Positions 3,056-3,430 of a stretch of 35,147 bases of DNA are shown in pieces (positions within the stretch are counted from its first letter, which is position 1; the number at the start of each line of letters is the position of its first letter). A model generated the notes under the pieces. It saw only the letters and a program-made list of their open reading frames with translations. It had not been told where the DNA came from and did no database searches. The translations under genes and the position numbers were made by a program. The DNA comes from Clostridiaceae bacterium (lineage in GTDB: Bacteria; Bacillota; Clostridia; Acetivibrionales; Acetivibrionaceae), in contig JAAYPF010000222.1 of assembly GCA_012519925.1 (NCBI GenBank), forward strand, positions 1 to 35,147, read 5' to 3'.

Positions 3056-3106
3056 AACTAAAAAAGGCTAAAAAACTTTCAAATAAAAGCCTCACTTACA
3101 ATAGTG

Positions 3107-3325
3107 AAAATGCATATTATGTAAAGAACTGAGCTACGAGCCTTAGAGAATGTAGACGAAGCGAAGGTCCGATTTTTGCGAAAGCAAAAGAAAAGTTCCT
3201 CTGTTTCTTGCGAAGCGAGATAAGTCGAATCACCTGTCCTTTTCGAAGGGAGTTTGATTCGACCCGCAGCAAGTCATACATTCTCTTAGGCTCGTAGCTT
3301 TAGTTCTTGGAATAATATGCATTTT
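3107..3325 (+). other. Multi-branched inverted-repeat element (candidate structured RNA or MITE-like element)
   Basis: Two arms of about 48 bases, 3107-3154 and 3277-3325, are complementary at about 43 positions, broken only by small mismatches. Inside are three further hairpins: TTTTGC-GAAA-GCAAAA at 3174-3189 (GNRA loop), TCTTGC-GAA-GCGAGA at 3206-3220, and TCGAATCA/TGATTCGA at 3225-3262 enclosing CCTT-TTCG-AAGG at 3238-3249 (UUCG loop). GCG and GGTC at 3161-3169 can pair with GACCCGC at 3261-3267 and close a four-way junction, competing by two bases with the third hairpin. The stable tetraloops read correctly only on the plus strand. It sits between the 3' ends of converging genes, so a 3'-end or terminator role is also possible. 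The identity is unknown to me. Confidence 0.6.
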
Positions 3326-3379
3326 TACGGCGGCGAGTACCTAAAATTATCACAAAGCCCTTCTAAAAATCCACTAATT

Positions 3380-3430
3380 TCAAGAAAGCTACTACATGTT
3401 TTTAAACTGTTTGTTAGTCACGTTTCTTGA
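3380..3430 (-). repeat. 8-bp inverted repeat beyond the DUF4397 gene
   Basis: TCAAGAAA at 3380-3387 pairs with TTTCTTGA at 3423-3430 across a long loop, just past the stop of the minus-strand DUF4397 gene. A short T run follows on the minus strand. It may be a weak terminator. The rest of 3056-3437 outside this and the large hairpin element holds nothing I can name. Confidence 0.3.

Follow-up and report, generated by a model that had tools for sequence, protein, structure and literature searches.

The transposases of the IS200/IS605 family insert 3' of a short oligonucleotide without creating a duplication and bind hairpins at both ends of their elements (PMC7290912). The PATEs, which are non-autonomous derivatives of this family, are short, have neither inverted repeats nor duplications, and can lose the core situated between direct repeats (PMC3119063). 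Intrinsic terminators are also targets of group IIC introns, which insert behind them (PMC4424553). The repeats described here, termed T1 and T2, resemble PATEs in being short, non-coding and present in many copies, with no inverted terminal repeats and, by eye, no target duplication, and also in their fixed orientation after a short 5' target and the loss of the core between direct repeats (PMC3119063). They differ from PATEs in that the searches gave no autonomous element sharing their ends, the hairpins near both ends are weak, they target an entire terminator T-tract and not a proven oligonucleotide of 4 to 6 nt, and T1 has a palindromic core of 190 to 225 nt within a total length of ~350 to 550 bp. 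They share with group IIC introns the sense insertion directly after intrinsic terminators, but they lack the group II RNA domains (domain V and D1-D4, judged by Rfam) and the GTGYG start, and they end in a terminator.

Two other classes were compared with T1. Like MITEs, it is small, multi-copy and intergenic with a long self-complementary core; unlike them, it has an internal rather than a terminal inverted repeat, its two ends differ and no target duplication was seen. REP/BIME sequences are also intergenic palindromes and form hairpin arrays, as T1 does in one species (G001), but REPs measure 20 to 40 bp, and a GTAG or CGTC tag is present in many of them (PMC3733652).

The copy from which this study started lies in a window of 35,147 nt, the whole stretch of DNA analysed, between two converging genes (Table 1). 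Our main reading, to which we assign a probability of about 0.62, is that T1 is a non-autonomous, terminator-targeting element of a single orientation, that T2 is its derivative, that copies decay by deletion, and that a Y1 transposase acting in trans is the most likely motor.

The window hairpin and the repeat around it

The window hairpin is real and lies far beyond chance: positions 3097-3335 of the plus strand had a minimum free energy of -108.8 kcal/mol compared with an average of -56.9 for shuffled sequences (sd, 4.7; z, -11.1), and 0 of 200 shuffles folded as well. The minus strand gave -94.2 kcal/mol (z, -11.3; again 0 of 200 shuffles as good), and since it folds almost as well, palindromy alone does not pick the strand. 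The predicted fold contained 47 arm pairs with three interruptions: a 3x3 loop, a 1x1 mismatch and a bulge of 1 nt. The arms had originally been placed at 3107-3154 and 3277-3325 and proved to be slightly larger than this. The branched interior that had been described was likewise recovered, with hairpins at 3173-3189 (GAAA loop), 3208-3220 (CTTGCGAAGCGAG) and 3224-3232/3255-3263 (GTCGAATCA/TGATTCGAC). The original prediction had also pointed to the GAAA and UUCG loops. A U-A pair closes the UUCG loop (3238-3249), which is a change private to the window copy, most other copies having GAGCGAAGCGAG; the argument from this loop therefore fails. The GAAA loop was present in the window and in some copies, whereas others had AAA, AUA or UAAG.

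Table 1. Positions of the genes and repeat features around the hairpin, numbered from the first base of the window
Feature	Position	Strand	Basis
Upstream gene, CotH kinase-family protein, 672 aa	1037..3055	+	
Left module remnant of T1 (CTTTCAAATAAAAGCCTCACTTACAA)	3076..3101	+	Alignment with other copies
CTTACAA, left member of the direct repeat CTYACAA flanking the palindromic core	3095..3101	+	Palindrome-free copies break at or near the repeat
Left arm of quasi-palindrome, type B (GAACTGAGCTACGAGCC), full pairing with right arm	3104..3154	+	Fold, alignment
Interior hairpin with GAAA loop, the loop varying from copy to copy	3173..3189	+	Fold, copy alignment
Interior hairpin CTTGCGAAGCGAG	3208..3220	+	Sequence, copy alignment
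Interior hairpin GTCGAATCA...TGATTCGAC, in all three species; UUCG tip (3238-3249) private to window copy	3224..3263	+	Copy alignments
Right arm of quasi-palindrome	3277..3328	+	Fold, alignment
Right module of T1 (GGCGGCGAGTACC...CACAAAGCCCTTCT...CTACTACATG..TTTAAAC..GTTAGTC..TTTCTTG), to element 3' end	3329..3429	+	Copy alignments
Converging downstream gene, DUF4397 protein, 221 aa	3438..4103	-	

A BLASTN search of the same genome with the element as query, one of the checks suggested with the original prediction, returned at least 37 matches at no fewer than ~25 places among the matches listed; with part-only copies counted, T1 was dispersed over at least ~35 places, again among the matches listed, and most copies were truncated. 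Near-full-length copies were found on contigs C78, C62 and C84 and many more were shortened. Two further species of the genus had one to three copies each among the matches listed (one locus in G001 and two in G002), and 57 further relatives gave one match in one genome, of 24 bases and at the threshold. The T1 copies had no reading frame inside. Alignment of the copies extended the homology from ~3076, some 20 bp past the CotH stop codon, to ~3429, which adjoins the DUF4397 stop codon, making the element larger than the originally delimited 3107-3325. Both the left and the right module aligned in most copies, indicating that these flanks are part of the repeat.

The window copy is without the 5'-most 100 to 150 nt of full T1, including the end that abuts the terminator (the full 5' part is seen in locus L238 of G002), and because of this truncation its own terminator placement is not visible. 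It is probably immobile, and its hairpin is the unusually well-preserved core of one decayed T1 copy and probably not a one-off regulatory RNA. The original prediction had offered two options, a miniature mobile element and a structured RNA, possibly the 3' UTR of the CotH gene. The former is supported by the dispersed copies (at least ~35), the relatives in two species, a young amplified sub-family and the precise placement after terminators. The latter found no support in the form proposed, as the sequence adjoins many unrelated genes, has no Rfam match and has a UUCG loop found in the window copy alone.

Placement behind terminators, and the short form T2

The 5' end of T1, TTTTCTAAGAAAGTGCATTGATTT, is common to T2, a 126-bp repeat found through a search with the 5' end alone and present in at least 18 copies at 95 to 100% identity plus older ones, among the matches listed. 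The ends of T1/T2 read TTTTCTAAGAAAGTGC...GCCCCTTTTGTTC. The two ends of T2 are unrelated to each other, there are no terminal inverted repeats, and the repeat is too short for a transposase; its 3' end, GGGGCGTAGCCCC plus TTTTGTTC, constitutes a terminator in its own right. In L238, a terminator is followed by the 5' half of T2 (to GTGTACCAT), the T1 left module, a deleted core, the T1 right module, GGGACGTTAGCCCC, a T-run and then the start of another element. Since this locus joins the T2 5' half to T1 parts, T2 looks like an internally deleted T1, and the two belong to one family.

Copies with full left ends had their 5' end (TTTTCTAAGAAAGTGCATTGATTTT) directly after the T-tract of an intrinsic terminator, and T2 copies were found behind many different terminators. 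Across the loci retrieved, with a 5'-end site taken as a match of at least 17/20 to the 5' end, a hairpin plus T-tract was immediately upstream in the sense orientation at 28 of 32 shared-5'-end sites compared with 106 of 1500 random positions (7%), the controls being drawn from either strand with coding sequence included. A few of the T1 sites were retrieved via a query containing a terminator repeat; the T2 sites were not. As expected from left ends that directly follow terminator T-tracts, the upstream gene was nearly always co-oriented with the element (36 copies, using simple codon-usage gene calls). Tandem-gene contexts, leaving out two unclear cases, were co-directional in 16 instances and opposite in 3, and no divergent context was found. 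The base just before the 5' end was mostly A but also G, C or T, so that no fixed target oligonucleotide is proven, and no target duplication was seen by eye in the T2 flanks. A replication-strand bias was considered and rejected: the plus strand was on the G-rich side in ~25 copies versus 8, a count confounded with gene strand, and convergent contexts gave ~8 versus 4. We consider it highly probable that T1/T2 is a mobile element with terminator targeting.

The elements were also found stacked, as T2 followed by a T1-like copy (C145), by a second T2 (C178) or by T3 (L185 and L193). T3 is a 65-bp repeat (TTACGCTTCTTTCGAACGAAGTGAAAGAAGCAAAAACGAAGGGGCTCGATGCCCCGAAGTTTTTATT) with >40 scored places in the same genome (e.g., L057, L059, L077, L079, L185 and L193) and no match within the window. 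It too is located behind terminators, ends in a terminator and forms tandem stacks. The right end of the G001 IS200 element contains an exact match to the hairpin loop of T3, GAACGAAGTGAAAG.

Pairing of the arms, and decay of the core

Two types of left arm were distinguished. Type A (GAACATTGCGAAGAGCC) leaves an internal loop of ~10 nt and occurs in all three species, while type B (GAACTGAGCTACRAGCC) pairs fully and occurs in the window, C62, C84, C152 and C142; the arms of the window copy are near-perfect because its left arm is of type B. Type B resembles a left arm overwritten with the right-arm sequence, the outcome that template switching at a quasi-palindrome would have. The GGA/GGA 3x3 loop and the T-T mismatch were retained in most copies across species. 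In an alignment of 10 sequences, 91.4% of cells paired and compensatory changes, on both sides of the pair, were found at seven pairs. The covariation score, 0.093, was higher than that of any of 500 shuffles, while no slid control scored above 0.069; since the structure came from one row and the 10 rows are related, this evidence is moderate.

The number of non-standard cells in the outer arms was 0 to 2 in the window, C13, G002a, G002b and G001, 3 in C200, and 5 to 7 in C78, C62, C84 and C117. The plus strand folded 10 to 20 kcal/mol better in the first five of these, but not in C200, C84 or C117. The asymmetry of G.U versus A.C in intact copies is suggestive, but biased by a structure taken from one of these rows. 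The RNA-like character originally proposed was upheld in part: intact copies keep pairing via both-side changes, and the plus strand has the advantage in the best-paired copies, though not in the most decayed ones. These patterns are most simply explained by pairing that persisted during the active life of the element and decayed afterwards.

A known RNA family was rejected, as the Rfam search gave no family at the curated cut-off anywhere in the window, nor in T1/T2. About 130 bp from the T1 copy on C13, on the other strand, a TwoAYGGAY RNA was detected (RF01731; 47.8 bits, above the cut-off; L089:1219-1368, minus strand).

These data bear on the alternative that the hairpin is a structured RNA at gene 3' ends (a stabiliser, an anti-readthrough barrier or a protein-binding element) that was selected and merely duplicated. 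Such an RNA would be consistent with the co-oriented upstream gene in all but a few cases, with the seven compensated pairs and the covariation score, with the plus-strand advantage in five copies and with the conserved GGA/GGA loop. Yet the structure is cut through or lost in most copies, T2 was amplified without the palindrome, and a position past the terminator, such as the elements occupy, should receive little transcription; moreover, homogenisation of the arms by template switching can mimic covariation, and Rfam gave no match. We regard this alternative as quite unlikely.

Loss of the core was frequent. Five copies (C74, C66, C152b, C176b and C78b) were without most or all of the palindrome. 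The heptamer CTCACAA was present on both sides of the core in several copies, and the breakpoints were often at or near it. In G001, three related hairpins were found behind a tRNA gene and its terminator (L032:1380-1790), the middle one long and the outer two being short versions of the same palindrome base.

Candidate motors and their consequences

G001 has nine near-identical IS200 elements (Y1_Tnp, PF01797; L225-L235). All nine share one orientation and follow a T-rich tract (typically TTTTTATTAT then TGGCTTTAGCC), and for eight a terminator hairpin was evident by eye. Like T1/T2, they are inserted in the sense orientation directly after T-tracts; unlike T1/T2, they encode a transposase, and their end sequences are unrelated. 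In the genome of the window, the Y1 gene on C52 is at a contig edge with no stop inside the match, the copy on C166 lies behind a hairpin and T-run and has in-frame damage by eye, and that on C49 is a fragment. BLASTN of T1/T2 against four Y1 loci (these three and one of the nine G001 copies) gave chance-level matches only. When an autonomous partner was sought by arm pattern, nearly all matches were known copies, and no gene was observed between such matches. The 5' hairpin of T2 is weak and its 3' hairpin clear, and relative to shuffles the terminal hairpins gave a z of -1.5 for the T2 fold and +0.8 for the right module of the window copy. A TnpB partner was rejected, the one match being weak (23.8 bits, below the cut-off); it is a lone Cas12f/TnpB-like protein of 486 aa (L267; C209:13067-13270) in a locus with no T1/T2 end motif.

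Because an IS200 element in a sister species shares with them both the type of landing site and the orientation, a Y1 transposase is the most likely motor for T1/T2, and we favour it with some confidence. We describe T1/T2 as PATE-like in behaviour but do not file them as PATEs, as no Y1 with matching ends was found and the terminal hairpins are unconvincing. A literature search, within the terms tried, returned nothing on terminator-targeting IS200/IS605 elements.

We propose that full T1 inserts one way, immediately downstream of an intrinsic terminator's T-tract, leaving no recognisable target duplication. Since its own 3' end bears a hairpin and T-tract (best seen in T2 and L238), each new copy would re-create the landing site, and the elements stack. 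T2 would have lost the palindromic core and was amplified recently, while most T1 copies are old and decay by deletion, often losing either the palindrome between the CTCACAA repeats or one arm. The Y1 (HUH) transposase, of the IS200/IS605 kind, would act in trans on single-stranded DNA, and the palindrome may serve as a hairpin in the single-stranded active strand, or as RNA.

Alternatively, T1/T2 could be SINE-like retroelements whose RNA ends at its own terminator, is copied in trans by a reverse transcriptase of the group IIC type and is integrated after terminators. The target choice of group IIC introns would fit (PMC4424553), as would the occurrence of group II introns in the genus, including one in G002 (L268) that starts right behind a terminator, and the terminator at the end of T2, which is where a transcript would also stop. 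Against these points, T1/T2 had no Rfam match although the same tool detected real introns with its group II models, and the group II reverse transcriptase of the same genome (C135) has an in-frame stop. The machinery of group II introns, moreover, is not known to move RNAs unrelated to it, and on balance we find this explanation quite unlikely. The intron in L268 (C9:807778) directly follows its terminator (ACACCCC...GGGGTGTTTGCTTTTTG then GTGTGCCC), as expected of group IIC. Separately, an RT-5 RNA (RF03026; 73 bits) was found near a 420-aa reverse transcriptase on C131 (L273:1127-1228).

It is very unlikely that the core was once independent, a small mobile palindrome that entered an older T1 frame and duplicated CTCACAA: this would suit the flanking heptamers, the palindrome-free copies and the different frame of the palindrome in the three-hairpin array behind a terminator in G001, but slippage between direct repeats explains the palindrome-free copies equally well, one and the same heptamer at every copy is expected from one ancestral structure rather than from independent insertions, and the arm-pattern search found no transposase with such ends. 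We give just as little weight to the idea that T1/T2, and perhaps T3, form a new class of terminator-homing mini-elements that end in a terminator, re-create their own target and travel as RNA with the help of a reverse transcriptase supplied in trans, like bacterial SINEs, the palindrome being kept as a functional fold. An integron attC site was rejected, since, judged by eye only, the 3' motif GTTTRAAC..GTTAGCC recalls attC boxes but lacks a visible partner box at the far end, and the copies are dispersed singly; a phage or plasmid origin was rejected for want of a match.

Small non-coding mobile elements are usually spotted by their inverted repeats, whereas T1 and T2 were spotted by their landing site. 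The ground behind a terminator is a safe harbour in which no gene is harmed, and an element with its own terminator makes the next harbour. The family also serves as a warning that a strongly folding hairpin between genes, even one that seems to covary, can turn out to be mobile DNA and not regulatory RNA. If T1 and T2 are driven by a Y1 transposase, as in our main reading, they would show that insertion can be directed to terminators in a second way, in addition to that of group IIC introns, and this would explain why the intergenic regions of the genus are filled with stacked repeats. Terminator-directed insertion by a Y1 element, as in the IS200 copies of G001, may merit a study of its own.
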